64,000 nucleotides of DNA from Frondihabitans australicus (GTDB lineage: Bacteria > Actinomycetota > Actinomycetes > Actinomycetales > Microbacteriaceae), in assembly GCF_003634555.1 (NCBI RefSeq), contig NZ_RBKS01000001.1:62001-126000 (forward strand), in the 5' to 3' direction. Both the position numbers and the translations under genes were made by a program. Positions 44,205 to 57,542 of this stretch are shown piece by piece (the first letter of the stretch is position 1; each line of letters begins with the position of its first letter). The notes beneath the pieces were generated by a model that saw only the letters and a program-made list of their open reading frames with translations, searched no databases and had not been told where the DNA came from.

Positions 44205-44289
44205 GTTACCCACCGGGGTAACGGCCTCTGACCTGGGCTTTTCTATTGTGAACGGAAGGTTACAGGTCGCGCAATTGAAGAGTTACCTG
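44205..44289. promoter_or_regulatory. GTTAC-box control region of the ABC/monooxygenase operon
   Basis: The dyad GTTACCC (44205-44211) and GGGTAAC (44216-44222) is followed by GTTACAG (44259-44265) and GTTACCTG (44282-44289). GTTACAG and GTTACCTG recur exactly (the latter reversed) in the gap beside the GntR gene at 56.56 kb. GTTAC should be rare in this GC-rich DNA, so four boxes in 85 bases point to an operator array. TATTGT (44243) is a possible -10. Confidence 0.6.
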
Positions 44290-44330
44290 CGCTGACGATT
44301 TCGGAAATACGCACAGGTCAGGCTTTCGGC

Positions 44331-45458
44331 ATGACCCTGAGAGAGCCCGACACGATCGACGAGACCCGCGCCGAGGCCGAGCGTCTCGCCGCTCTCGACA
44401 CGGCGATCACGCCGCGTCGACGCTCCATCTCGGCGAACCTCTGGTTCGTCCGCCCCATCGTGCTCACGATCATCAACCTGTTCGTGTTCGTGCTGATCGC
44501 GTTCTTCCTCGTGAAGCTGATCCCCGGCAACCCGCTCGTCTCGGCGTCGGGCGGCCGGCTCTCGGGCAAGGCGCTCGAGAAGGCGATGGCCACCTACGGC
44601 CTGAACGACCCGTGGTACGTGCAGCTCGGCACCTACCTGAAGCAGCTCGCTCACTTCGACCTCGGCACGTCGATCGCGTCGGGCCGCCCCGTGGCTCAGG
44701 ACTTCGCCACCCGGATCCCGTCCACCCTCGAGTTCGTGCTCTTCGGCCTGCTGTTCGCCTGCCTGTTCTCGCTCGCGGTGTCGTACTTCATCGTCACTCA
44801 CCGCCAGAACCGCGTCTCGAAGATCCTCGCCTCCTACGCCCGCTCGGCCGGCGCCCTGCCCGAGTACGTCATCGGCATCGCGTTCCTCTTCATCTTCTAC
44901 GCCGAGCTGCACTGGGCTCCCGCCCCGTCGGGCCGTCTCGACCCGATCCTGATCCAGCCGAAGCAGGTCACCGGCTTCCCGATGCTCGACTCGATCATCG
45001 CGGGCAACACGGCCGACCTGCAGTCGTACGCGGCGCACCTCGTGCTGCCGGTCATCGTCATGGTGCTCGCCGACTCGCCGATCCTGATCAAGATGCTCAT
45101 CCTCAGCCTCGACGACGCCATCGACGACCCCGCCACCAAGTTCCGTGTGGCCTCAGGAGCCAGCCGACGCACCGTCCTCCTGAGCGTCTACCGGCGTGCG
45201 GCCCCGAGCGCGGTGGCCACCCTCGGCATGCTCTTCGGAATCCTGATCGGCGGCGCGGTCGTGCTGGAGTCGCTGTTCAGCCTCGGCGGCCTCGGGCAGT
45301 ACGCCGTCGACGCGGTGAACTCGTCGGACGTCTTCGCGCTCCGGTCGTTCCTGGTGGTCGTCGCCGCGATGTGTCTCGCCATCTACCTGATCACGGACAT
45401 CGTCACGATGCTCCTCGACTCCAGGCGCCGCACCGGCGTCGCCGGGAAGGACGCCTGA
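44331..45458 (+). CDS. Dipeptide/oligopeptide-type ABC transporter permease (DppB-like)
   Basis: A 375-residue permease with six hydrophobic segments. After a 30-residue basic N terminus, TIINLFVFVLIAFFLVKLIPGNPL is TM1 with its following loop, and the EAA coupling region lies near residues 268-290 (KFRVASGASRRTVLLSVYRRAAPS). It forms the membrane channel with the DppC-like protein next, coupled by ATGA. The operon runs on to two monooxygenase genes, so it probably imports their substrate. Substrate class (peptide-like or aminopolycarboxylate-like) is inferred from the family. Confidence 0.85.
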   Translation: MTLREPDTIDETRAEAERLAALDTAITPRRRSISANLWFVRPIVLTIINLFVFVLIAFFLVKLIPGNPLVSASGGRLSGKALEKAMATYGLNDPWYVQLGTYLKQLAHFDLGTSIASGRPVAQDFATRIPSTLEFVLFGLLFACLFSLAVSYFIVTHRQNRVSKILASYARSAGALPEYVIGIAFLFIFYAELHWAPAPSGRLDPILIQPKQVTGFPMLDSIIAGNTADLQSYAAHLVLPVIVMVLADSPILIKMLILSLDDAIDDPATKFRVASGASRRTVLLSVYRRAAPSAVATLGMLFGILIGGAVVLESLFSLGGLGQYAVDAVNSSDVFALRSFLVVVAAMCLAIYLITDIVTMLLDSRRRTGVAGKDA

Positions 45459-46357
45459 TGTCGCTCGACACCCCCGTCGCCGTCACCACCGACGAGCCGC
45501 TGCTCCAGGCGCCCACCGCCACGCGACCGAGGAAGGAGAGCCGGGCGGGCTTCTACTGGCGCCTCGTGCCGTTCGCCATCGTGATCCTGCTGGCCATCAT
45601 CGGCCCGCTCCTCGCCAACCACCCGGCGACGAGCGTCGTCGGCGACCAGTCGGTCGCCCCGAGCGGCAAGTTCTGGTTCGGCACCGACGCCAACGGCCTC
45701 GACGTCTACTCGCGCGTCATGACGGCGTTCCGCCTCGACGTGATCATCGCCCTCAGCGTCACGGTGATCGCGACCGTCGGCGCCATGGCGATCGGCCTCG
45801 TCTCGGGCATGTACCAGTCGAACCGCTCGGCGCTCGGCCTCCTCGCCCGGCTGCTCGGCCGTGCCGTCGACCTGGTGCAGTCGATCCCGGTCATGATCGC
45901 CGGCCTCGTGCTCGTGTCGTTCTTCGGCCGCAACGCCGTGGTCATCACGCTCACGCTCGGAATCGTGCTCATCCCGTTCCAGGCGCGCCTCATGCGCACC
46001 GAGGTGCTGCGGACGCGCACCGACGGGTACGTCGACGCGGCGCGCATGTCGGGGGAGTCGGAGTTCCGCCTGCTCCTGCGCCATGTGCTGCCCAACTCGT
46101 TCCGGCCGACCCTCGAGAACACGTCGTCGATCTTCGCGATGGGCATCATCTTCTGCGCCGCCCTCGGGTTCCTCGGCGTCGGCATCCCGACGCCCGCCGC
46201 CGAGTGGGGCACCATGCTCGCGGCCGGCGCTCCGGACGCCGCGGTCGGCCGCTGGTGGTCGGTCGCCTTCCCCGCCGCCGCGCTCGCCTTCTCGGTCTGG
46301 GCCTCGTCGGTCGTCGTCGCCGCGTTCGTCGGCCGCGGTCGCCGCCGGAGCCGCTGA
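45458..46357 (+). CDS. Dipeptide/oligopeptide-type ABC transporter permease (DppC-like)
   Basis: A 299-residue permease. RLVPFAIVILLAIIGPLL is TM1; WFGTDANGLDVYSRV (residues about 71-85) is a hallmark of the DppC/OppC family; the EAA loop DGYVDAARMSGESEFRLLLRHVLPNS is near residues 183-208. About six hydrophobic segments. Its ATG overlaps the TGA of the previous permease. It heterodimerises with that protein and is driven by the two ATPases. Confidence 0.87.
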   Translation: MSLDTPVAVTTDEPLLQAPTATRPRKESRAGFYWRLVPFAIVILLAIIGPLLANHPATSVVGDQSVAPSGKFWFGTDANGLDVYSRVMTAFRLDVIIALSVTVIATVGAMAIGLVSGMYQSNRSALGLLARLLGRAVDLVQSIPVMIAGLVLVSFFGRNAVVITLTLGIVLIPFQARLMRTEVLRTRTDGYVDAARMSGESEFRLLLRHVLPNSFRPTLENTSSIFAMGIIFCAALGFLGVGIPTPAAEWGTMLAAGAPDAAVGRWWSVAFPAAALAFSVWASSVVVAAFVGRGRRRSR

Positions 46358-46442
46358 CGCCGGCGCCGACGCCGACGCGCCAGTCCCACTGATCCTGCTC
46401 CACTCCCTCCTCCCTCCCCGCACCCACAGGAGTACTACCCAC

Positions 46443-48065
46443 ATGACAAAACGCACCAGGCTCCTCGCCATCGTGGCCGTCGCCGCGGCCGGCGCTCTCG
46501 GCCTCGCCGGCTGCAGCTCCGGCTCGAGCTCGTCGTCGTCGAGCAGCACCTTCGTCGAGGTCACCGCGGCCCAGCCGCAGAGCTTCTCGTACGAGACCAG
46601 CGCCACCGGCTACGAGGCGGCCGAGTTCTTCATGAACACCGGCGCCACCCTGATCCGCAACAAGTACGTGGCGGGCACCGGCGGCCAGTCGGCTCACGAG
46701 GACTACAACGACTTCACCGGCGTGCTCGCGAAGAGCTACGACGTCTCGTCGGACGGCCTCACCTACACGTTCCACCTCGACACGAAGGCGCGCAGCAACT
46801 ACGGCGACAAGCTGACCGCCGACGACGTCATCTGGACCATGCAGCGCAAGTTCGCCGTCTCGACCTCGATCGTGCCCTTCATCAGCGCCCCGTTCATCAC
46901 CTCGGCGACGCAGTTCAAGAAGGTCGACGACTCGACCGTCACCCTGACGGTGGCGAAGGCCAGCTACGGCTACACGGCGCTGTCGCTGCTCGCGAACGTC
47001 GGCTACAACATCTACGACGCCGACGTGCTCAAGAAGCACACCACCTCGTCGGACCCCTGGGCCGTCAAGTGGTCGGGCACCCACGCCAACTTCGGCTTCG
47101 GCGCGTACAAGCTCACCAGCTACACGCCCGGTGAGCAGATGGTCTACGACGCGAACCCGTACTACCCGCTCGGCGAGCCCAAGGTGAAGCGCATCGTGCA
47201 GCGCGAGGTGGCCGACGCCGGTCAGCGCTCGAACCTCGTCAAGTCGGGCGACGCGCAGATCGCCACGCAGCTCCGCCCGGCCGACCAGATCTCGCTGCAG
47301 AAGTCGAAGTCCGCGCAGATCTTCACCGTGCCGACCAACGCCTACGTCTACATGCCGCTGCTCACCTCGAAGGGCACCTTCAAGGACGTCAACGTGCGCA
47401 AGGCCCTGGCCTACGCGATCCCCTACGACAAGATCAACAGCAACGTCTACCACGGCCGCGCCACGTCGATCTCGACGATCCTGTCGGACAAGGACCCCGG
47501 CTTCGACGGCGACGGCCTCACCGCCAACTCGACCGACATCGCGAAGGCGAAGTCGATCCTGTCGGCCGCCGGCTACACCTCTCCGGTCAAGTTCACGCTG
47601 ACGGTCAACAACTCGGTGCCCGACCTCATGGAGGCGGCCGTCCAGATCCAGACCGCCGTCAAGGCCGCAGGATTCGACGTCACCATCAACGCCGTGAACT
47701 CCGCCGCGTTCCAGACCGGTCTCGCCGACAAGTCCTTCGAGGCGTCGATCCAGCGCGACTACGCGGTCGTCCAGTCGCCGCCCTACGTGCTGTCGCTCTT
47801 CTACACGCCGAAGTCGGTCATCAACTGGCCCGACTTCACCAGCTCCGAGCTGATGAGCGACATCGCCGCGGGCAACGCAGCCGGTGACCCCACGGGTGCC
47901 GCCGCCGGCAAGGAGTGGAACGCCGCGCAGAAGGTGCTCCAGAGCCAGATGCCGACGATCTACATCAACTACGTCCAGCCGCTGAACGCCTTCGCCACCA
48001 ACGTGAAGGGCTACGTGTTCCGGTCGGACAACGTCATCGACTACTCGCAGCTCAGCCTGAAGTAG
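46443..48065 (+). CDS. Solute-binding lipoprotein (family 5) of the ABC importer
   Basis: A 540-residue extracytoplasmic binding protein. The lipobox LAGC ends at Cys24 after a basic/hydrophobic signal, followed by a Ser/Gly-rich linker. Family 5 features are YTFHLDTKARSNYGDKLTADDVIWTMQRKFA and KDVNVRKALAYAIPYDKIN. It captures the substrate and delivers it to the permeases. The gene is in an unbroken operon and is followed by a hairpin that may raise its mRNA relative to the downstream genes. Confidence 0.87.
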   Translation: MTKRTRLLAIVAVAAAGALGLAGCSSGSSSSSSSSTFVEVTAAQPQSFSYETSATGYEAAEFFMNTGATLIRNKYVAGTGGQSAHEDYNDFTGVLAKSYDVSSDGLTYTFHLDTKARSNYGDKLTADDVIWTMQRKFAVSTSIVPFISAPFITSATQFKKVDDSTVTLTVAKASYGYTALSLLANVGYNIYDADVLKKHTTSSDPWAVKWSGTHANFGFGAYKLTSYTPGEQMVYDANPYYPLGEPKVKRIVQREVADAGQRSNLVKSGDAQIATQLRPADQISLQKSKSAQIFTVPTNAYVYMPLLTSKGTFKDVNVRKALAYAIPYDKINSNVYHGRATSISTILSDKDPGFDGDGLTANSTDIAKAKSILSAAGYTSPVKFTLTVNNSVPDLMEAAVQIQTAVKAAGFDVTINAVNSAAFQTGLADKSFEASIQRDYAVVQSPPYVLSLFYTPKSVINWPDFTSSELMSDIAAGNAAGDPTGAAAGKEWNAAQKVLQSQMPTIYINYVQPLNAFATNVKGYVFRSDNVIDYSQLSLK

Positions 48066-48078
48066 TCCGCACCACCCC

Positions 48079-48108
48079 GGGCCGGCGGTGCTGATCCGCC
48101 GCCGGCCC
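48079..48108 (+). terminator. Intra-operon hairpin after the binding-protein gene
   Basis: GGGCCGGCGG (48079-48088) pairs perfectly with CCGCCGGCCC (48099-48108). It begins 13 bases after the stop and is not followed by T residues. Such stem-loops after binding-protein genes often stabilise the upstream mRNA or partly terminate, giving excess binding protein; this role is inferred. Confidence 0.5.
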
Positions 48109-48152
48109 GGCCCCTTCCACTTCTGTCACAGCCGTCTCAGCCGGAGGACCCC

Positions 48153-49016
48153 ATGCCAGACACCACCGACACCGCCCCCGTCCTGCGGGTCCGCGACCTG
48201 TCCGTCACCTACGGCACCAACGTCGCCGTCAAGCACGCGAACCTCGAGGTGCGCCCCGGTGAGCGCGTGGCGATCGTGGGAGAGTCAGGATCCGGCAAGA
48301 CCAGCCTCGGCAACGCCATCGCGGGCTTCCTCGACCTCGACGCCGGCCGCGTCGACGTCGACACCCTCGAGCTGCAGGGCACCGCGCTCGACCGCTCGGG
48401 GAGGGGCGCACCGCGCATCCCGCGACGCACTCCCGGCCTGTCGATGATCTTCCAGGACGCCATGTCGTCGCTCGACCCGGTCTGGACGATCGGCAGCCAG
48501 CTCACGGCCGTGCTCCGCGAGACCGAGAACGTGTCGCGGGCGCAGGCCAAGAAGGACGCCCTCGAGTGGCTGCGCCGGGTCGGAATCACCGACCCCGAGC
48601 GGGTCATGCACGCCAAGCCGGGCGAGCTGTCGGGCGGCATGCGCCAGCGCGTCATGATGGCCATCGCGCTGTCGTCGAAGCCGGCGCTCCTCATCGCCGA
48701 CGAGCCGACGAGCGCCCTGGACGCCTCTCTCGCCGTCGGCGCGATGAAGCTGATGGTCGAACTCGCCGAGCGCGAGGGCACGGCCGTGCTGATGATCACC
48801 CACGACATCGAGCTGTGCCGCAAGTTCACCGACTTCGTGATCGTGATGTACCACGGCGAGATCGTCGAGCAGATCTCCTCCAGTGAATTGAGTAACGCCA
48901 AAGACCCGTACACGCGCGGGCTCCTCGAGTGCGTGCCGACGCTCGCCTCCGCCCGGCTCGACGAGCTGCCCACGCTCGAGTCCGTCCGCGCCCGCCTCGA
49001 AGGGACCGCAGCATGA
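48153..49016 (+). CDS. ABC transporter ATPase (DppD-like)
   Basis: A 287-residue ATPase: Walker A GESGSGKTS at residues 43-51, LSGGMRQR signature, Walker B LLIADEPTSALD and H-loop ITHD. FQDAMSSLDPVWTIGSQL after the Q-loop is characteristic of peptide/nickel-type ATPases. The C-terminal DPYTRGLLECVPTL tail is present but lacks the iron-sulfur Cys cluster seen in some DppD proteins. Start and stop are tightly linked to the next ATPase (ATGA). It energises the importer. Confidence 0.87.
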   Translation: MPDTTDTAPVLRVRDLSVTYGTNVAVKHANLEVRPGERVAIVGESGSGKTSLGNAIAGFLDLDAGRVDVDTLELQGTALDRSGRGAPRIPRRTPGLSMIFQDAMSSLDPVWTIGSQLTAVLRETENVSRAQAKKDALEWLRRVGITDPERVMHAKPGELSGGMRQRVMMAIALSSKPALLIADEPTSALDASLAVGAMKLMVELAEREGTAVLMITHDIELCRKFTDFVIVMYHGEIVEQISSSELSNAKDPYTRGLLECVPTLASARLDELPTLESVRARLEGTAA

Positions 49017-49834
49017 GCGCCTCCACCCCCACCACCGCGACCGGCTCGACCGCCGTGGCCCGCGGCGTCCGCATCGAGGCGCACGAGGTCCGCAAGAGCT
49101 ACGGCCGCAAGACCGCCGTCGAGGGCGTCTCGTTCGTCCTCGCGCCGGGTGAGCGCGTCGGCATCGTCGGCGAGTCGGGATCCGGCAAGTCGACGATGGC
49201 GAAGATCATCACCGGCCTCGAGAAGTCGTCCGCCGGCAGCATCACCGTCGACGGCCGCGAGCTGAACGACCTCATGTCGTCGCGTCAGGGTCAGCTCGAG
49301 TACCGCCGCCGAGTGCAGCTGGTGGCCCAGGACACCACCTCGACCTTCGACCCCCGGCACAGGATCCGAGAGTCCCTCCGAATCCCGGCACAGATCCTCG
49401 GCGGCCACGACGTCGCCGGGGCCGACGCCGCCATCGCCGAGATCACCGCCGAGCTCGGCATCGAGCCCGCCTGGGTCGACCGCTACCCCGGTGAGCTCTC
49501 CGGCGGCCAGCGTCAGCGCATGTCGATCGCCCGGGCCCTCATCGTCCGGCCCGACCTCGTCGTCTGCGACGAGGCGGTCTCCGCCCTCGACGTGTCGGTC
49601 CAGGGCGTCGTGCTCAACCTGTTGAAGCGCTATTCCGTCGAGCACGGCGCAGGCCTCATGTTCGTCTCGCACGGCCTGCCCGCCACGGCGTTCATCACAC
49701 GGGAGCTCGTCGTTATGAACGCCGGCCGGGTCGTCGAGACGGGCCGCACTCTCGAGCTCCTGGAACGCCCCTCCCACCCCTACACGCAGAAGCTCGTCGG
49801 CGCCTACGAGGACGCCGACGAGACCGCCGCCTGA
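49013..49834 (+). CDS. ABC transporter ATPase (DppF-like)
   Basis: A 273-residue second ATPase: Walker A GESGSGKST at residues 53-61, LSGGQRQR signature and Walker B VVCDEAVSALD (DEA rather than DEP, common in DppF). VAQDTTSTFDPRHRIRESL after the Q-loop and PSHPYTQKLVGAYED near the end are typical. It pairs with the DppD-like ATPase. The monooxygenase gene follows after a 117-base gap. Confidence 0.87.
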   Translation: MSASTPTTATGSTAVARGVRIEAHEVRKSYGRKTAVEGVSFVLAPGERVGIVGESGSGKSTMAKIITGLEKSSAGSITVDGRELNDLMSSRQGQLEYRRRVQLVAQDTTSTFDPRHRIRESLRIPAQILGGHDVAGADAAIAEITAELGIEPAWVDRYPGELSGGQRQRMSIARALIVRPDLVVCDEAVSALDVSVQGVVLNLLKRYSVEHGAGLMFVSHGLPATAFITRELVVMNAGRVVETGRTLELLERPSHPYTQKLVGAYEDADETAA

Positions 49835-49951
49835 GTCCTCCCCACCACCGCACCCTCCCCACCGGCGCCCGCACGGCGACGTCGGCACGGCACCCCCATG
49901 CCTCGGCCGACACGCGCGCGGCGCACCAGCACCACCAGAGAAAGGCTCCAC

Positions 49952-51286
49952 ATGTTCCACCTCGGATGGTTCCTCGGCTCCGGATTCGGAATCCAGCCCT
50001 GGAGCGCCACGAACGGCGACGGCCCCTGGGCCGGCAGCAACGTCCACGACTGGATGAAGCCCGACATCTACATCGACCTCGCCAAGAACCTCGAGCGCGC
50101 AGGATTCGACTACATCCTCATCGAGGACACCGCGATGGTCGAGGACTCGTACCAGCAGTCGGCCGAGACGTCGCTGCGCCGCGGGTTCATGGCGCCCAAG
50201 AACGACCCGATGCCGCTCGTGCCGCTGATGACCCGCGCGACGAATCACATCGGCGTGATCCCCACCGTCTCGACCATCCAGTACCCGCCGTACCTCGCGG
50301 CCCGCCTGTACACGACGCTCGACCACCTGACCAAGGGGCGCGTCGGCATGAACGTCGTCACCAGTGTCACCGACCGCGTAGCGCAGAACTTCGGCTACGA
50401 CCGCCACCTCGACCACGACGAGCGCTACACGATGGCGATGGAGTGGATCGACGTCGTCAAGCAGCTGCAGGGGTCGTGGGAGGAGGGCGCCGTCGTCGCC
50501 GATCCCGAGGCCGGAATCTACGCCGACCACACGAAGGTGCACCCCATCGACTTCGAGGGCGAGTACTTCAAGTCGCGCGGGCCGCTCAACACGATCCCCG
50601 GCCCGCAGCGCCTCGTGCCCGTCTGCTCGGCCGGCTCGTCGATGCCCGGTCGCCGCCTCGCGGCCCGGTACGACGACACGATGATCGCCCAGCTGCCCGA
50701 CGGCCCCTCGGCGCGGAAGTACCGCGACGACATGCGCGCCCTCGTCGCCGAGGAGGGCCGCAACCCCGACGACGTGAAGTTCATGTTCATCGCGACGCCG
50801 ACGATCGCCGCCACCGACGCGGAGGCCGTCGAGAAGGCGGCCGCGGCCAAGGAGTGGAAGAAGTCCGACAAGGCGGTCGAGTACAACCTCTGGAACATGT
50901 CGTACACCTCCGGCGGTCGCATCGACTTCGGCGGCATCGACCCCGACACCAAGGTCAAGGACATCGACCTGTCGAAGCAGAACGGCGAGCACACCTCGAT
51001 CGCCAACCTCTTCGGCGGCCGGGAGGAGCAGACGCTCCGCGAGGTCGTGTCGACGTCGTTCCAGATCGGCGACATGGGCCTCGTCGGCTCGCCCGACACC
51101 GTGGCCGCCAAGATGGGCGACCTGATGGACGAGATCGGCGGCGACGGGTTCCTCTTCTACCTGCCGACCACCCGCTACAACATGGCGATGGTCGCCGACG
51201 GCCTCGCCCCCGCCCTGAAGCGCCGCGGCCTCACCCGCGAGAGCTACACCGGCGGCACCCTCCGCGACAACCTTCTGCAGTTCTGA
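49952..51286 (+). CDS. Flavin-dependent monooxygenase, NtaA/SnaA/DszA group (copy 1)
   Basis: A 444-residue luciferase-like monooxygenase. MFHLGWFLGSGFG, ERAGFDYILIEDTA, TVSTIQYPPYLAARLYTTLDHLTKGRVGMNVVTS and the YFKSRGPLNTIPGPQR insertion match the FMNH2-dependent NtaA/SnaA/DszA group (nitrilotriacetate, pristinamycin and dibenzothiophene-sulfone monooxygenases). The family oxidises C-N or C-S bonds with O2 and reduced flavin from a partner reductase; no reductase gene is in the window. It is nearly colinear with the next gene. AAAGG precedes ATG 49952. Confidence 0.87.
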   Translation: MFHLGWFLGSGFGIQPWSATNGDGPWAGSNVHDWMKPDIYIDLAKNLERAGFDYILIEDTAMVEDSYQQSAETSLRRGFMAPKNDPMPLVPLMTRATNHIGVIPTVSTIQYPPYLAARLYTTLDHLTKGRVGMNVVTSVTDRVAQNFGYDRHLDHDERYTMAMEWIDVVKQLQGSWEEGAVVADPEAGIYADHTKVHPIDFEGEYFKSRGPLNTIPGPQRLVPVCSAGSSMPGRRLAARYDDTMIAQLPDGPSARKYRDDMRALVAEEGRNPDDVKFMFIATPTIAATDAEAVEKAAAAKEWKKSDKAVEYNLWNMSYTSGGRIDFGGIDPDTKVKDIDLSKQNGEHTSIANLFGGREEQTLREVVSTSFQIGDMGLVGSPDTVAAKMGDLMDEIGGDGFLFYLPTTRYNMAMVADGLAPALKRRGLTRESYTGGTLRDNLLQF

Positions 51287-51312
51287 CCGCCCTCGATCAC
51301 AGGAGTACCACC

Positions 51313-52647
51313 ATGTTCCATCTCGCCTGGTTCCTCGGCGACGGCTACGGCATCCACCCGTGGAGCACCACCAACGGCGACGGCCCCTGGGTCGGCTCGA
51401 ACGCCTTCGACTGGACCGACCCCGACATCTACATCGACATGGCGACGAGCCTCGAGCGCGCAGGATTCGACTACATCCTGATCGAGGACACCGCGATGGT
51501 CGAGGACAGCTACAACGGCTCGGCCGACACGTCGCTGCGCCGAGGCTTCATGGCCCCGAAGAGCGACCCCATGCCGCTCGTGCCGATCATGACGCAGGCC
51601 ACGAAGCACATCGGCGTGATCCCGACGGTGTCGACGATCCAGTACCCGCCGTACCTCGCGGCTCGCCTCTACACGACGCTCGACCACCTCACCGGAGGCC
51701 GCGTCGGCATGAACGTCGTCACGAGCGTCACCGACCGCGTCGCGCAGAACTACGGCTACGACAAGCACCTCGACCACGACGAGCGCTACGCCATGGCGAT
51801 GGAGTGGACCGACGTCGTGCTCCAGCTGCAGGACTCGTGGAAGGACGGCGCCGTCATCGCCGACCCCGAGTCGGGCGTCTACGCCGACCACACGAAGGTG
51901 CAGCCGATCGACTTCGAGGGCAAGTACTTCAAGTCGCGCGGCCCGCTCAACACGATCCCCGGCCCCCAGCGCCAGCCTCCGATCTGCTCCGCAGGCTCGT
52001 CGGAGCCCGGCCGCGACCTGGCCGCGAGGTACGACGACACCATGATCTCGATGGTGCGCACAGGAGCCGAGGGACGCGCCTACCGAGACGACATGCGGGC
52101 TCGGGTCGCCGCCTACGGGCGCAACCCCGACGACGTGAAGTTCATGTTCCTCGCCACGCCCACCATCGCCGCCACCGATGACGAGGCCTGGGCGATGGTC
52201 GAGGCCGCCCGCGCCTACCGGGCCAGCGACAAGGGCATCGAGTACAACCTCTGGAACATGTCGTACACCTCGGGCGGCCGGATCGACTTCGGCGGCATCG
52301 ACCCCGACACGCTGATCCGCGACATCGACCTGACGAAGCAGAACGGCGAGAACACGTCGATCAAGAACCTGTTCGAAGGGCACGAGGACAAGACGCTGCG
52401 CGAGGTCGTCGCGACGTCGCACCAGGTCTCGGACATGGGCCTGTGGGGCTCGCCCGACACGGTCGCCGGCAAGATGGAGGACCTCATGGCCGAGATCGGC
52501 GGCGACGGCTTCCTGATCTACATGCCGACGACGCGCATGAACTTCGCGCTCGTGGCCGACGGCCTGGCCCCGGCGCTGCGTCGTCGCGGGCTGATCCGCG
52601 AGGAGTACACCGGCGGCACGCTGCGCGACAACCTGCGGGCGTTCTAG
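51313..52647 (+). CDS. Flavin-dependent monooxygenase, NtaA/SnaA/DszA group (copy 2)
   Basis: A second 444-residue paralogue, aligning with copy 1 from end to end without a gap and with roughly three quarters identical residues by eye, so the pair arose by tandem duplication. Differences cluster at the start (GDGYGIHP for GSGFGIQP) and around residues 30-50 and 200-300, which might alter substrate choice. AGGAG precedes ATG 51313. Being last in the importer operon, it probably acts on the imported compound or its first product. Confidence 0.87.
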   Translation: MFHLAWFLGDGYGIHPWSTTNGDGPWVGSNAFDWTDPDIYIDMATSLERAGFDYILIEDTAMVEDSYNGSADTSLRRGFMAPKSDPMPLVPIMTQATKHIGVIPTVSTIQYPPYLAARLYTTLDHLTGGRVGMNVVTSVTDRVAQNYGYDKHLDHDERYAMAMEWTDVVLQLQDSWKDGAVIADPESGVYADHTKVQPIDFEGKYFKSRGPLNTIPGPQRQPPICSAGSSEPGRDLAARYDDTMISMVRTGAEGRAYRDDMRARVAAYGRNPDDVKFMFLATPTIAATDDEAWAMVEAARAYRASDKGIEYNLWNMSYTSGGRIDFGGIDPDTLIRDIDLTKQNGENTSIKNLFEGHEDKTLREVVATSHQVSDMGLWGSPDTVAGKMEDLMAEIGGDGFLIYMPTTRMNFALVADGLAPALRRRGLIREEYTGGTLRDNLRAF

Positions 52648-52723
52648 CCGCCGTCGCCCCCCGACCCCCTGGGCAACAGGGGTGCGCCCCGACCCGTTCC
52701 CCCGCGGGCCGGGGCGCTGTCGT

Positions 52724-52957
52724 TCAGGTGGCGTCGGAGCGTCGCCGGAGGTGGCGCGAGATGCGGCCCAGCGCCTGGTTGATGAAGAAGCCGACCGCGC
52801 CCACCAGTGGCAGGAGGAGGACGATCGCCGACCAGATGACCTTGATCAGGGTGGGGCGCTCGCGACCTGCCCACACCACGATCAGGGCCGTGAGCTCGAG
52901 CACGGCGATGACCACGGCCGTGACAATCCGCTCGCTGCCGTAAGCGCTCTCGAACAT
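52724..52957 (-). CDS. Small membrane protein of PLDc_N type
   Basis: A 77-residue protein with two hydrophobic segments (RIVTAVVIAVLELTALIVVW and LIKVIWSAIVLLLPLVGAVGFF) and the PLVGAVGFFINQALGR ending of the short PLD-nuclease N-terminal family. It resembles the gene at 42795. It begins 14 bases after the stop of the secreted-protein gene upstream on the same strand and converges on the monooxygenase operon. Confidence 0.65.
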   Translation of the reverse strand: MFESAYGSERIVTAVVIAVLELTALIVVWAGRERPTLIKVIWSAIVLLLPLVGAVGFFINQALGRISRHLRRRSDAT

Positions 52958-52971
52958 GGTCGTCTCCGTTC

Positions 52972-53661
52972 TCAGCCGTACAGGCTGACGCTCGTGCCGC
53001 TGACGCGGATGCCGAAGGCGCCCGAGACGCCGCTGCCGATGTGGACCACGTCGGCCTTGTACGTCAGCTCCGCCCAGGCCGGGCCCGCGGAACTCTGAGT
53101 CGCGCGCTTCACCGAGGCGGACACGGAACAGCCACCGATGGTGTTGGCGCATCGGGCACTGCGCACGTCTCGGACTTTCGCCTTGCCTGATGAGCTCGTT
53201 TGGTAGTCGACGACGAACGACGCGTTGCTGAAGATGTCGCTGATGCTGATCTTGCAGTTCGTGTTCCAGCCGCCCGAACCCAAGCAGCCCGACTTCGAAC
53301 TCTCGATTGAGGGCGCACCATCGTCCGCGCCCTCCGTGGACATCGTTCGCCGCGAGCCGTCTGCGAAGACGTCGACGACACTGGCGCCGTCATCGGCCGA
53401 CGAGGACGAGACGGGGACAGCGTCAGGTCGCGCGGAATCAGGGATGGATCCGGCCTCGATCTTCGCGACGAGTGCGACCTGCGTCTGGGCGGGAACACCG
53501 AGCGCATCCATTCTCGCGTGGAGACCGGCTACCTGCTGCTGCGTGATCGCGACGGGTTCAGCGCTCGCCGGAGTCGCCCCGATGAGGCTGCAGGCGCCGA
53601 CGGCGAGCAGGGACGCCGCTGCGACGAGCGATCGACAGGCGGGCTGGGAACGGGGCGGCAT
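52972..53661 (-). CDS. Secreted protein of unknown function
   Basis: A 229-residue protein with a Sec signal (RSQPACRSL, hydrophobic stretch, TPASA cleavage near residue 34); VGAC could alternatively be a lipobox. The mature part starts with a helical QQQVAGLHARMDALGVP segment, then a Ser/Asp-rich linker and a Ser/Gly beta-rich C-terminal domain with four cysteines (GCLGSGGWNTNC, then RCANTIGGC). Codon use is less GC-rich than in the neighbours. AAGGAG precedes the ATG. Family not recognised. Confidence 0.65.
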   Translation of the reverse strand: MPPRSQPACRSLVAAASLLAVGACSLIGATPASAEPVAITQQQVAGLHARMDALGVPAQTQVALVAKIEAGSIPDSARPDAVPVSSSSADDGASVVDVFADGSRRTMSTEGADDGAPSIESSKSGCLGSGGWNTNCKISISDIFSNASFVVDYQTSSSGKAKVRDVRSARCANTIGGCSVSASVKRATQSSAGPAWAELTYKADVVHIGSGVSGAFGIRVSGTSVSLYG

Positions 53662-53713
53662 GGAAGGCTCCTTTGGCTTGCGCGACGCGAGGCCGAGCGG
53701 CCTCGTAAGGAGA

Positions 53714-53740
53714 ATGTCAAATCAGAGCCTGGTATGTCAA
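53714..53740 (-). promoter_or_regulatory. Two direct TTGACAT repeats upstream of the secreted-protein gene
   Basis: On the minus strand TTGACAT occurs at 53740-53734 and again at 53720-53714, 20 bases apart, about 53 and 73 bases before the start codon. Either may be a -35 element, or the pair may be a binding site. No clear -10 is spaced correctly. Confidence 0.4.
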
Positions 53741-53753
53741 TAATGATCCAGCG

Positions 53754-55145
53754 TCAGCACTCGATCACGTTGACGGCGAGCCCGGCCTCCGAGGTCTCCT
53801 TGTACGACGACGCCATGTCGCGCCCGGTCTGCCGCATCGTCTCGACCACGGTGTCGAGGCTGACGAAGTGCGAGCCGTCGCCGAGCAGCGCCAGCCGCGT
53901 GGCGGCGACCGCCGTGCCGGCCGCGATCGCGTTCCGCTCGATGCACGGCACCTGGACGAAGCCGCCGACCGGGTCGCAGGTGAGTCCGAGGTGGTGCTCC
54001 ATCGCGATCTCGGCCGCGTTCTCGACCTGGCGAGGGGTTCCGCCCAGGATCGCGGTGAGTCCCGCCGCGGCCATCGACGATGCCGAGCCGACCTCGCCCT
54101 GGCACCCCGCCTCGGCTCCTGAGATCGACGCGTTGCGCTTGTAGAGCGAGCCGACGACGGCGCTCGTGAGCAGGTAGTCGCGGACGACCCTCGCACGCGG
54201 CACCCCGGCGAACTCGATCGCGTAGCGGCCGACGGCGGGGATGATGCCGGCCGCGCCGTTCGTCGGGGCCGTGACGACGCGACCGCCGCCCGCGTTCTCC
54301 TCGTTCACCGCGAGGGCGAACGCCTGGAGCCACTGGGCCGGGGCATCGGGCAGCGCGGGTTCGGCCCGCAGAGCTGCCGCGACCGAGGCGGCGCGGCGCG
54401 GCACCTTCATCCAGCCGGGCAGCACGCCGGTGGCTGACAGCCCGGCGTCGATGCACCCCTCCATCGCGCGCCAGCGCTGCTCGAGCCCGGCGGCGACGGC
54501 GTCCGACCCGTGCAGCGCGCACTCGTTCGCCCAGGCGATCTCGGCGATCGACTCGCCGCGCGCCGCGCAGAGCGCGAGCAGCTCGGCGGCGGTCGCGAAG
54601 CCGAGCGGCGCCTCCTGGGCGGGCAGCGCTCGGTCGTCGTCGCCCTCGCGCACCACGAAGCCGCCGCCGACCGAGAAGTACGTCTCGCGGGCGAGCACCC
54701 GGCCCGACTCGTCGACGGCCGACAGCTGCAGCGCGTTCGGGTGCTGCGGAAGGCGCGTCAGCGGGGCGAGGGTGAGGTCGTCGTCGCCCCAGGCGAGAGG
54801 GTGCGCGCCGAGGAGGCTCACCGATCCTGCACCCTGGGCTCTGGCGAGAGCACCGCGGACCTCGTCGGGGTCGCACGTCTCGGGCGCGAGGCCCTGCAGC
54901 CCCGCGATCACGGCGTCGGGCGTGCCGTGCCCGAGGCCGGTCGCCGCGAGCGATCCGAACAGCGTGACCGTCACTCGACCCACTGCCTCCAGGCCGCAGG
55001 ATCGGCCCACGCCCTCGGCGAAGAGCCTCGCCGCGCGCATCGGCCCGACCGTGTGAGACGACGACGGCCCCACCCCCACCGAGAACAGGTCGAGGGCGGA
55101 GACGTAGTCGGTGGTGCGGGTGGCGACGCTGCCGGTGGTGCTCAT
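53754..55145 (-). CDS. sdaA: L-serine dehydratase, single-chain iron-sulfur type
   Basis: A 463-residue L-serine ammonia-lyase with fused beta and alpha domains. SALDLFSVGVGPSSSHTVGPMRAA opens the beta domain; the alpha domain holds ANECALHG, ITGAPTNG-type APTNGAAGIIPAVG, and the Cys in GCQGEVGSASS, LTCDPVGG and VPCIERN that ligate the 4Fe-4S cluster, with the conserved C terminus MASSYKETSEAGLAVNVIEC; the terminal Cys acts as the tail ligand. It converts serine to pyruvate and ammonia. It follows the third monooxygenase by 69 bases on the same strand, suggesting co-transcription. Confidence 0.88.
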   Translation of the reverse strand: MSTTGSVATRTTDYVSALDLFSVGVGPSSSHTVGPMRAARLFAEGVGRSCGLEAVGRVTVTLFGSLAATGLGHGTPDAVIAGLQGLAPETCDPDEVRGALARAQGAGSVSLLGAHPLAWGDDDLTLAPLTRLPQHPNALQLSAVDESGRVLARETYFSVGGGFVVREGDDDRALPAQEAPLGFATAAELLALCAARGESIAEIAWANECALHGSDAVAAGLEQRWRAMEGCIDAGLSATGVLPGWMKVPRRAASVAAALRAEPALPDAPAQWLQAFALAVNEENAGGGRVVTAPTNGAAGIIPAVGRYAIEFAGVPRARVVRDYLLTSAVVGSLYKRNASISGAEAGCQGEVGSASSMAAAGLTAILGGTPRQVENAAEIAMEHHLGLTCDPVGGFVQVPCIERNAIAAGTAVAATRLALLGDGSHFVSLDTVVETMRQTGRDMASSYKETSEAGLAVNVIEC

Positions 55146-55214
55146 GCTCTCGACGGTACGCCTGTCCGGCCGGGGCACAGCACACACCCGGCCGGACAGG
55201 ATTCTTGTGCGCCC

Positions 55215-56519
55215 CTAGAAGGCCAGGAGGTTCTCGCGGAAGGTGTCGTGCTCGTAGCCGTCGCGGATGAGCCCGCGGCGACGGAGCACCGGCGCGAGGC
55301 CGTCGCACACCTCGGTGAGGTTCTTGCGGGTGACGGGCAGGCCGATGAGGAACCCGTCGCCGCCGGCCTCCTGCACGGCCTCGTCCATCTGCGCCGCGAC
55401 GGTCTCGGGCGACCCGACGAGGCGCACCGAACCGGTCGTGTCGCGCTGTGCGGGAAGGGCCTCGCGCAGGGTCTTGCCGTCGGCCTTGGCGAGGAAGGCC
55501 TCGATCACCGACTGGTGGCCGTTGCTCTTGCCCTTCAGCTCCTGCGGCAGCGGCTCGTCGAGGTCGAACTTCGCGAAGTCGAAGCCGGAGGTGTACGAGA
55601 GGTTCGCCAGCTGGGCGTCGATCGAGTCCTTGGTGGCGGCCAGCATGCGCTCGTTCTTCTCCTCGGCCTCGCGGTCGGTGTCGCCGAGCACCGGCTGCAC
55701 GAGGAAGAGCACCTTGAGGTCGTCGGGGTTGCGGCCGAAGCCCGCGGCCCGGCGGCGGATGTCGTCGCGGTACTCCTTCATGGCGGCGACGCCGGGCGCC
55801 GACGCGATGAGCGTGTCGGCGTTCTTCGCGCCGAGGTCGCGGCCCTTCGGCGACCCGCCGGCCTGGCAGAGCACTGGGTGGTGCTGCGGCGACGGCACCG
55901 TGTTGAGCGGTCCGCGCGTCCTGTAGAACTGTCCCTCGAAGTCGACGTGGCGTACCTTCTCGTGGTCGGCGAAGACGCCGGTGGCCTCGTCGAGCACGAG
56001 CGCGTCGGCGTCCCACGACGACCAGAGCGCCTTGACCGCCTGCACCCACTCGTCCGCCATCTCGTAGCGGAGGTCGTGCTCGAAGTGCTGCTCGTAGCCG
56101 TAGTTCTGGGCGGCGGCGTGAGGCGACGCGGTCACGAGGTTCATGCCGACGCGGCCGTGCGAGAGGTGGTCGAGGGTGTTCATGAGTCGCGCCGCGAGGA
56201 ACGGCGGGTAGAACGGCGTGGCGGCGGTGGCGATGATGCCGAGGTGCTTCGTGGCCGCGGCCAGCAGGGGCACGAGGGGCATCGGATCCTGCCGGATGAT
56301 GGCCGTGCGCAGCGAGTACTCGAACGACGAGCCGAAGACGTCAGGAAGCACCGAGGAGTCCTCGAGCATCATGTAGTCGAACCCGGCGCGCTCGAGGCTC
56401 GTCGCGGCGTCGATGAACAGCTGCGGGTTGGCGACGTCGCGACCGACGTTGCCCGACCACTGCTCATTCCAGCCGTAGGCGCCGAAACCGTAGCCGAGGA
56501 ACCAGCCCAAGTGGAACAT
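55215..56519 (-). CDS. Flavin-dependent monooxygenase, NtaA/SnaA/DszA group (third, divergent)
   Basis: A 434-residue protein of the same group as the two at 50-52 kb. It keeps MFHLGWFLGYGFGAYGW, ERAGFDYMMLEDSS, FYPPFLAARLMNTLDHLSHGRVGMNLVTASP and FYRTRGPLNTVPSPQ but is clearly more distant. It may act on a different intermediate or on a related compound. The gene is divergent from the GntR regulator at 56754, and their gap carries GTTAC boxes shared with the importer operon. L-serine dehydratase follows it. Confidence 0.87.
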   Translation of the reverse strand: MFHLGWFLGYGFGAYGWNEQWSGNVGRDVANPQLFIDAATSLERAGFDYMMLEDSSVLPDVFGSSFEYSLRTAIIRQDPMPLVPLLAAATKHLGIIATAATPFYPPFLAARLMNTLDHLSHGRVGMNLVTASPHAAAQNYGYEQHFEHDLRYEMADEWVQAVKALWSSWDADALVLDEATGVFADHEKVRHVDFEGQFYRTRGPLNTVPSPQHHPVLCQAGGSPKGRDLGAKNADTLIASAPGVAAMKEYRDDIRRRAAGFGRNPDDLKVLFLVQPVLGDTDREAEEKNERMLAATKDSIDAQLANLSYTSGFDFAKFDLDEPLPQELKGKSNGHQSVIEAFLAKADGKTLREALPAQRDTTGSVRLVGSPETVAAQMDEAVQEAGGDGFLIGLPVTRKNLTEVCDGLAPVLRRRGLIRDGYEHDTFRENLLAF

Positions 56520-56562
56520 GCATCATCCAATCTCTGTGATGCCTCCACTGTGGAGGGCGCTC

Positions 56563-56688
56563 GTTACAGCCGGAGCGCGGTCAGGTAACCGCTGATTGCG
56601 CGACCGAAGCCGCTGTTCGCGCGCCCGATGTTGCAGGCTTGTAAAAGGATTCCGCGACCCCTCAGAATCCGCTGGGAGCGCTGTTACC
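56563..56688. promoter_or_regulatory. GTTAC-box region between the third monooxygenase and the GntR gene
   Basis: GTTACAG (56563-56569) and CAGGTAAC (56582-56589) form an imperfect inverted pair 44-70 bases before the monooxygenase start; GTTACC recurs at 56683-56688, 66 bases before the GntR start. GTTACAG and the complement of CAGGTAAC both occur at 44259 and 44282, ahead of the importer operon. These are candidate sites for the adjacent GntR protein. Confidence 0.6.
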
Positions 56689-56753
56689 ATCGGCTCACCA
56701 CTCGAAGCCGCCTGGTCTGAGGGGGGCAGGCGCGGAAGGATCCGGAGCCTGCC

Positions 56754-57542
56754 ATGACGATCGCACCGCAAGACCACCCTCGCTTCGCCTCGCACCGCGG
56801 GGTCGACGAGCAGCCCGTGACGACGGAGCACCCGCGCGCGAAAGGCGGCACCGCCCGTGGCCGCCAGATCTCCGCTCGCCGGGTGCGCGACCTCATCACG
56901 GCCTCGATCCGGGCCGGCCTCATCGACGCGGACGACCCCCTGGCCGAGGAAGACCTCATGGTCGTCTTCGACACCAGCCGCGGCTCGGTGCGCGCCGCCC
57001 TCACGCAGCTGAGCGAGATCGGCTTCGTCGAGCGGAAGCGCCGGGTCGGCACGACGGTCAACCGCATCGGCATCAGCATGCCCCTCACCGACATCCAGGC
57101 CGTCCACGACGAGGTCTTCATCGACATCATCGAAGACCGGGTGGTGACGAGCTTCCCGCTGGTGCGCGAGCGGCTCCAGATCGACGAGCCCGAGGTGCGC
57201 ATGGTCGAGAACACCTTCACCGCCGACGACGAGGTGATCGGCCTCCGCTCGGCCTACTACTCGCGGCGGTTCTCGCAGGATCCCCGGGTCGTCCCCACGA
57301 CCAGCCCCATGTCCGAGACGATCCGCGTGTTCTTCGGCGCCGACCCGGGCCAGGTCACCGTGTCGATGGGCAGCGACGCGGCCGACGCGCACACCGCCCG
57401 CGTGCTCGGCGTCGCCGAGGGTCACCCGCTCATCGTGCGCGAGATGACCTACTACTCCTCCGACGGCCAGCCGCTGCAGACGGTGTTCGACCGGTTCCGC
57501 GGCGACCGCGTGAGGCTCGAAGCGGTCACGAGCGTCGTCTGA
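56754..57542 (+). CDS. GntR-family regulator with UTRA domain
   Basis: A 262-residue regulator. After a 35-residue polar N terminus, residues about 40-104 form the GntR winged helix (RDLITASIRAGLID, then TSRGSVRAALTQLSEIGFVERKRRVGTTV); residues about 115-258 fit the UTRA ligand-binding domain (VVTSFPLVRERLQI, then LGVAEGHPLIVREMTYYSSDG, then FDRFRGDR). HutC-type members respond to the small-molecule substrate of the genes they control. Its position and the shared GTTAC boxes make it the likely controller of the whole monooxygenase module. Confidence 0.85.
   Translation: MTIAPQDHPRFASHRGVDEQPVTTEHPRAKGGTARGRQISARRVRDLITASIRAGLIDADDPLAEEDLMVVFDTSRGSVRAALTQLSEIGFVERKRRVGTTVNRIGISMPLTDIQAVHDEVFIDIIEDRVVTSFPLVRERLQIDEPEVRMVENTFTADDEVIGLRSAYYSRRFSQDPRVVPTTSPMSETIRVFFGADPGQVTVSMGSDAADAHTARVLGVAEGHPLIVREMTYYSSDGQPLQTVFDRFRGDRVRLEAVTSVV

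Follow-up and report, generated by a model that had tools for sequence, protein, structure and literature searches.

Do an ATP-binding cassette (ABC) importer, three luciferase-like monooxygenases (LLMs) and a serine dehydratase that lie on opposite strands near one GntR-family regulator form a single functional unit, and what compound would such a unit handle? This question is raised by a locus at positions 44205–57542 of a 64,000-nucleotide stretch of the Frondihabitans australicus genome (contig NZ_RBKS01000001.1, positions 62,001–126,000, forward strand), which we call the window and whose coordinates are used throughout. Our analysis indicates that the locus is probably a horizontally acquired import-and-oxidise catabolic cassette under the control of one GntR regulator with a UTRA ligand-binding domain. 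The evidence that carries this reading is the gene order in relatives and a rare operator-like site found at both halves. The features of the locus are as follows.

44267–44286, + strand: operator-like site TCGCGCAATTGAAGAGTTAC; core dyad GCAAT-N6-GTTAC at 44271–44286; 45–64 bp 5' of the importer start
44331–45458, + strand: PermB, Opp/Dpp-type ABC permease (BPD_transp_1); best NCBIfam relatives Opp2B/NikB/DppB, all below cut-off
45458–46357, + strand: PermC, Opp/Dpp-type ABC permease (BPD_transp_1); relatives Opp4C/DppC below cut-off
46443–48065, + strand: SBP_bac_5 substrate-binding lipoprotein, cluster C (SBP_bac_5, 230 bits)
48153–49016, + strand: DppD/OppD-like ATPase (ABC_tran)
49013–49834, + strand: DppF/OppF-like ATPase (ABC_tran)
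49952–51286, + strand: LLM1, NtaA/DmoA-family monooxygenase dependent on reduced flavin mononucleotide (FMNH2) (TIGR03860, 356 bits)
51313–52647, + strand: LLM2, tandem duplicate of LLM1, NtaA/DmoA family (TIGR03860, 365 bits)
53754–55145, − strand: sdaA, single-chain Fe-S L-serine ammonia-lyase (TIGR00720, 587 bits; cut-off 345)
55215–56519, − strand: LLM3, NtaA/DmoA-family FMNH2-dependent monooxygenase (TIGR03860, 396 bits)
56585–56603, − strand: second operator-like site TCGCGCAATCAGCGGTTAC; spacer of 5; 66–84 bp 5' of LLM3, in the LLM3/gntR divergent region
56754–57542, + strand: GntR-family regulator with a UTRA ligand-binding domain (PF00392, 48.2 bits, cut-off 27; PF07702, 43.4 bits, cut-off 23.8)

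The reading frames are intact for every gene named in an earlier note on this DNA. They form two units on opposite strands, the importer with LLM1 and LLM2 on the + strand and LLM3 with sdaA on the − strand, and gntR is divergent from LLM3. Intergenic gaps within the + strand set range from −4 to +117 bp, which would fit a single transcript. All parts of an Opp/Dpp-type importer are there, namely the SBP_bac_5 lipoprotein, two BPD_transp_1 permeases and two ATPases; peptide transport is its putative function, and the NCBIfam equivalog scores are all far under their cut-offs. LLM1–3 exceed the curated cut-off of TIGR03860, the NtaA/DmoA family (279.7 bits, 280 rounded), over the whole protein; LLM1 and LLM2 are 79% identical and LLM3 is 48% identical to LLM1. 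The profile matches agree with what the note had described, a five-gene importer running into two duplicated monooxygenases, with a third monooxygenase and a serine dehydratase on the other strand beside a GntR/UTRA regulator. The genome, a single 4.04-Mb contig from a plant-associated, soil-type member of the Microbacteriaceae, encodes 28 Bac_luciferase proteins; NtaA/DmoA-type enzymes are abundant in it, so that their presence alone is not remarkable.

To establish whether the two halves belong together we compared gene order in relatives. In a sister Frondihabitans genome (G001) one strand carries PermB-PermC-SBP-DppD-DppF-LLM1-LLM2-OYE-LLM3-sdaA, with gntR divergent from PermB; SBP denotes the substrate-binding protein and OYE an Old Yellow Enzyme. 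Two Curtobacterium genomes have gntR divergent from PermB-PermC-SBP-DppD-DppF-LLM1-OYE-LLM3-SsuE-HsaB, in which SsuE and HsaB are FMN/flavin reductases. The GntR relatives that head these clusters in G001 and Curtobacterium are 58–66% identical to the window protein. Relative to these arrangements, LLM3, sdaA and gntR are turned round in the window and the OYE gene is gone; the closest OYE relatives in the genome of the window (70% and 64% identical) are located elsewhere. The one-strand order in G001 and Curtobacterium indicates that the window holds a rearranged form of one operon. The ancestral form would be a gntR gene divergent from importer-LLM1-OYE-LLM3, with FMN reductases added in Curtobacterium, and the window arrangement is best read as this single operon split by an inversion, each half retaining an operator-like site. 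In G001, the gntR of the sister cluster is in two frames with a break near residue 171 (L135:2618–3330), which could reflect a pseudogene or a sequencing error.

The site at each half is captured by the pattern TCGCNYAATN{5,6}GTYAC, which we derived by comparing promoter regions. It has two matches in the window and none in 100 shuffles; across the 4.04-Mb genome it again has just these two matches, both at this locus, and a reversed control has none. Each site is oriented toward its own operon, one on the PermB side and the other on the LLM3 side. The same element occurs in the same orientation in the gntR-PermB region of G001 and of the two Curtobacterium genomes, and it is also found 5' of the importer genes in a Rhodococcus yunnanensis cluster. 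Its core is the dyad GYAAY-N6-RTTRC. At loci from other genera, this dyad with a spacing of 6 has 13 occurrences in the 42 kb of intergenic sequence 5' of cluster genes versus 3–4 in 1.36–1.38 Mb elsewhere, and spacings of 4, 5, 7 and 8 were never seen upstream of cluster genes. Inside-out controls gave 1 match upstream and 1 elsewhere, and reversed controls 0 and 14. This count is a more independent test than the uniqueness of the pattern. Only the core dyad was used for counting, since a palindrome learned from other genera alone (consensus CGGCGTAAY...RTTACGCCG) separates the window sites poorly. Genome-wide the core dyad occurs at seven places, one of which is the importer promoter; none of the other six is upstream of a further LLM gene among the Bac_luciferase matches. 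The earlier suggestion that the two halves form a regulon has therefore gained support, from a single operon in the sister species and Curtobacterium and from a rare promoter element present at both halves only. The shared site also points to the precise set of genes that would be controlled together. The dyad is present and conserved in the right places, and from its position it is the predicted binding site of the GntR protein.

Several observations weigh against this interpretation. Because the pattern was derived from these same promoters, its uniqueness is in part a consequence of that choice, and the 13 sites in other genera trace back to about five lineages, so that not every one counts as independent. 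A direct-repeat control was also enriched in other genera, with 8 matches upstream and 11 elsewhere, indicating that half-sites occur in direct orientation too. The LLM3 site has a spacer of 5 and not 6. With the palindrome from other genera the importer site takes sixth place in the window and not first, because the GC-rich flanks of the motif favour other positions. As for the chemistry, no flavin reductase is encoded in the window, and the candidates in the genome, one PF01613 and five PF03358 proteins, all lie outside it. Apart from these points, a scan for consensus promoters and terminators gave nothing above chance. Just 5' of the importer, at 44205–44222, there is in addition a perfect inverted repeat, GTTACC-CACCGG-GGTAAC, which may be a second regulatory element or belong to the end of the upstream gene.

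The gene sdaA had been taken by the earlier note as a hint that the pathway yields serine or an amino acid derivative that gives rise to serine. The gene follows LLM3 after 69 bp here and after 39 bp in G001, and read-through from the LLM3 promoter is possible. Synteny, however, largely refutes the serine reading, which we regard as very improbable. No other serine dehydratase is encoded in the genome, and each of the seven Frondihabitans genomes has a single copy of sdaA. In four of these (G002, G003, G004 and G006) it adjoins the same pabC-like aminotransferase gene with no LLM beside it, and its other side is occupied by genes for MarR and for a transporter-sized protein of ~700 residues, followed in G003 and G006 by an AlkZ-like gene. 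In the genome of the window (G000) and in G001, the importer/LLM cassette occupies the place of this pair. None of 71 related loci outside the genus, which we picked from named public genomes by similarity to the monooxygenases, carries sdaA. The single copy, the constant pabC side and the absence from the outside loci together identify sdaA as a resident gene, next to which the cassette inserted. By this comparison the cassette has replaced the marR and transporter-sized gene pair between sdaA and alkZ, and SdaA is probably outside the pathway, at most read through from LLM3. With the serine lead to the substrate removed, the shared operator-like site and the Curtobacterium version of the operon are the better leads.

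In the mechanism we propose, the lipoprotein and the DppBCDF-like importer would take up a small polar compound, probably amino-acid-, peptide- or opine-like. The monooxygenases would then draw on O2 and on FMNH2 from flavin reductases whose genes lie elsewhere and would hydroxylate carbons adjacent to N or S, such that C–N or C–S bonds would be broken in successive steps. The GntR protein would occupy the dyad GYAAY-N5/6-RTTRC 5' of each transcription unit and would be released once the compound or a breakdown product binds the UTRA domain.

How far do the proteins themselves narrow down the substrate? Family membership supports the earlier assignment of LLM1–3 to the NtaA/SnaA/DszA type, and we take them to be putative FMNH2-dependent two-component monooxygenases of the C–N- and C–S-cleaving family. 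In a tree they fall inside an uncharacterised, mostly actinobacterial clade. The AlphaFold2 model of LLM1 (predicted local distance difference test score, pLDDT, 90.9) has a TIM-barrel luciferase-like fold, and its best Foldseek match is BdsA (5xkd; TM 0.85, probability 1.00), with HcbA1, LadA, DmoA and RcaE close behind. LLM1–3 are 28–36% identical to solved relatives (BdsA/DszA, DmoA, LadA, HcbA1, YtnJ and the NtaA family), and homology at this level does not fix the substrate or the choice between C–N and C–S cleavage. As the identities are flat over this range, we dropped the assignment of a substrate via the nearest characterised monooxygenase.

The lipoprotein model (pLDDT 87.9) has its closest folds in GbpA, Aapf, DppA and the opine-binding AgaA/MoaA (Z 36–39). 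It is about equally similar to glutathione-, peptide-, opine- and nickel-chelate-binding proteins (Z 34–39), and fold comparison does not separate these ligand classes. The fold was dropped as a guide to the substrate, since proteins that bind peptides, glutathione, opines, nickel chelates or sialic acid all give similar scores. A hint of a sugar came from a dihydroxyacetone-type kinase and RpiB beside a second cluster in G001 (L043), where a cassette of gntR, SBP, LLM1 and LLM3 sits before a dhaKL-rpiB-gntR operon. It was likewise dropped, since dhaKL-rpiB-gntR is resident in three relatives without adjoining monooxygenases. Cassettes found beside resident sdaA and beside resident dhaKL-rpiB-gntR indicate that little about the substrate of this mobile cassette can be read from its neighbours. 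The importer type is variable as well. Relatives of LLM2 that are 68–73% identical adjoin a ribose-type importer in Subtercola, Cryobacterium and Rhodococcus; these loci (L128, L129 and L123), which hold the closest outside LLM2 relatives after Curtobacterium, have ribose-type ABC importers and an alpha/beta hydrolase in place of the Opp-type importer. The gene neighbourhood thus shows that the monooxygenase is not bound to one importer type, and the ribose-type case gives no substrate.

Comparison with described systems bears on two more specific explanations. If the cluster served sulfur scavenging, an organosulfur compound would be imported, LLM1–3 would cleave its C–S bonds, and the nutrient gained would be sulfur. 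The closest solved relatives by sequence, BdsA/DszA and DmoA, cleave C–S bonds, and BdsA is the best fold match. Moreover, an organic sulfur source raises both peptide-type ABC importers and FMNH2-dependent monooxygenases in Gordonia terrae C-6, and their locus tags are close neighbours (PMC3868597). Yet the flat identities across C–S-cleaving, C–N-cleaving, alkane and dehalogenating relatives make the rank of the nearest relative a weak guide. BdsA/DszA, the dibenzothiophene sulfone monooxygenase, is also the best sequence match of LLM3, but the identity is 32–35%, and the cluster has no DszB/DszC partners and a polar-solute importer instead. The regulation, by a GntR/UTRA protein and a cluster-unique site, looks compound-specific and unlike a sulfur-limitation switch, with none of the six other core-dyad matches upstream of a further LLM gene. 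We consider sulfur scavenging possible but hold it only tentatively.

The substrate might instead be a natural aminopolycarboxylate or an opine-like N-substituted amino acid degraded by C–N cleavage, with several monooxygenases removing several N-substituents; we judge this rather unlikely. The closest described arrangement is the ethylenediaminetetraacetate (EDTA) operon of Chelativorans sp. BNC1, which encodes an Opp-type importer (EppABCD) with EmoA and EmoB (PMC7312458). The module logic is shared, with an Opp/Nik-type importer, a cluster C binding protein and a TIGR03860-family monooxygenase in both, and the fold of the binding protein is near the opine-binding AgaA/MoaA and NikA. However, proteins that bind peptides, glutathione or sugars resemble these folds to the same degree, EmoA belongs to the remoter LLM relatives, and no iminodiacetate oxidase is encoded nearby. 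Unlike the EDTA operon, the window has three monooxygenases, no in-cluster reductase and a GntR/UTRA regulator with a conserved dyad. There is no close kinship to EmoA or NtaA: LLM1 is ~27–28% identical to EmoA by structure alignment, and identity to the NtaA-family structure 3sdo is 33–35%. C–N cleavage of a natural compound is also performed by the riboflavin lyase RcaE of Microbacterium maritypicum, from the same bacterial family, which shares fold and enzyme family with the LLMs; the identity is 28–29% by structure alignment, and no other rca genes were recognised in the cluster. The yxe and ytm operons of Bacillus subtilis, which serve the use of S-(2-succino)cysteine through YxeK and YtnJ/CmoJ, resemble the locus as dedicated catabolic operons with same-superfamily monooxygenases and oxygenative substrate cleavage (PMC9706529). 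They differ in their N-acetyltransferase and deacetylase steps, as no N-acetyltransferase or N-deacetylase gene is found in the 44.2–57.5 kb region, and YtnJ is 28–32% identical to LLM1–3. By analogy, the import-and-oxidise cassette most likely functions like the EDTA, succinocysteine and Gordonia systems; by the tests made it belongs to neither the EDTA/nitrilotriacetate nor the succinocysteine systems.

Related clusters with an importer, 2–7 monooxygenases, FMN reductases, major facilitator superfamily (MFS) pumps and GntR are widespread in Actinobacteria, occurring in Rhodococcus, Rhodococcoides, Nakamurella, Cellulomonas, Pseudonocardia, Cryobacterium, Williamsia and Nocardia. Of the 71 loci, 26 have three or more importer subunits of this type. 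Among these 26, at least two LLMs are found in 24, GntR in 19, an MFS pump in 16 and the SsuE/HsaB pair in 8; the LLM counts are not independent of how the loci were selected, whereas the importer and GntR counts are. The clusters of Curtobacterium, Rhodococcus, Nakamurella, Cellulomonas, Pseudonocardia and Cryobacterium have the same module types as the window and, in several lineages, the same dyad, but vary in LLM number and in SsuE/HsaB reductases, MFS pumps, OYE or ribAB. We found no description of this cluster, of its operator or of these related clusters in the literature searched. It is conceivable, though less likely than not, that the locus belongs to a large undescribed actinobacterial class, in which an Opp-type importer and 2–7 monooxygenases of one uncharacterised clade are controlled by GntR/UTRA via the dyad GGCGTAAY-N6-RTTACGCC and are specialised for a natural compound family, for instance N- or S-linked conjugates of amino acids from plants or microbes. 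As clusters of this kind turn up repeatedly in Actinobacteria, frequently in genera from soil or associated with plants, identifying a single substrate would assign a role to many monooxygenases that are now annotated merely as nitrilotriacetate monooxygenase or LLM class oxidoreductase. The Curtobacterium operon includes flavin reductase genes and is the easier version to work with.

The survey yielded further LLM arrangements. The genome of the window has a second GntR/importer cluster at 549–568 kb (G000:C1; L039, L040) with four LLMs and a dicarboxylate symporter gene, the closest LLM being 58–59% identical to LLM1. In Rhodococcoides trifolii (L084:83–11296) seven LLM genes and an EmrB-like MFS pump gene are almost consecutive beside GntR, and in Williamsia (L113:2143–5992) and Nocardia (L119:8–3754) an LLM cluster is accompanied by two flavin reductases and a bifunctional ribAB, as if self-supplying flavin. 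A different recurring set in Micrococcales relatives (L052, L053, L054, L055 and L056) pairs a related LLM group with a histidine-ammonia-lyase-like protein and a nearby pyridoxal phosphate-dependent (PALP) enzyme; three of these cases also have a non-Opp-type ABC importer. Finally, two small − strand genes without a Pfam match lie between LLM2 and sdaA in the window (52724–53661), one with a signal-peptide-like N-terminus; their homologues (47% and 32%) adjoin a different LLM cluster in Frondihabitans sp. PhB188 (L045).

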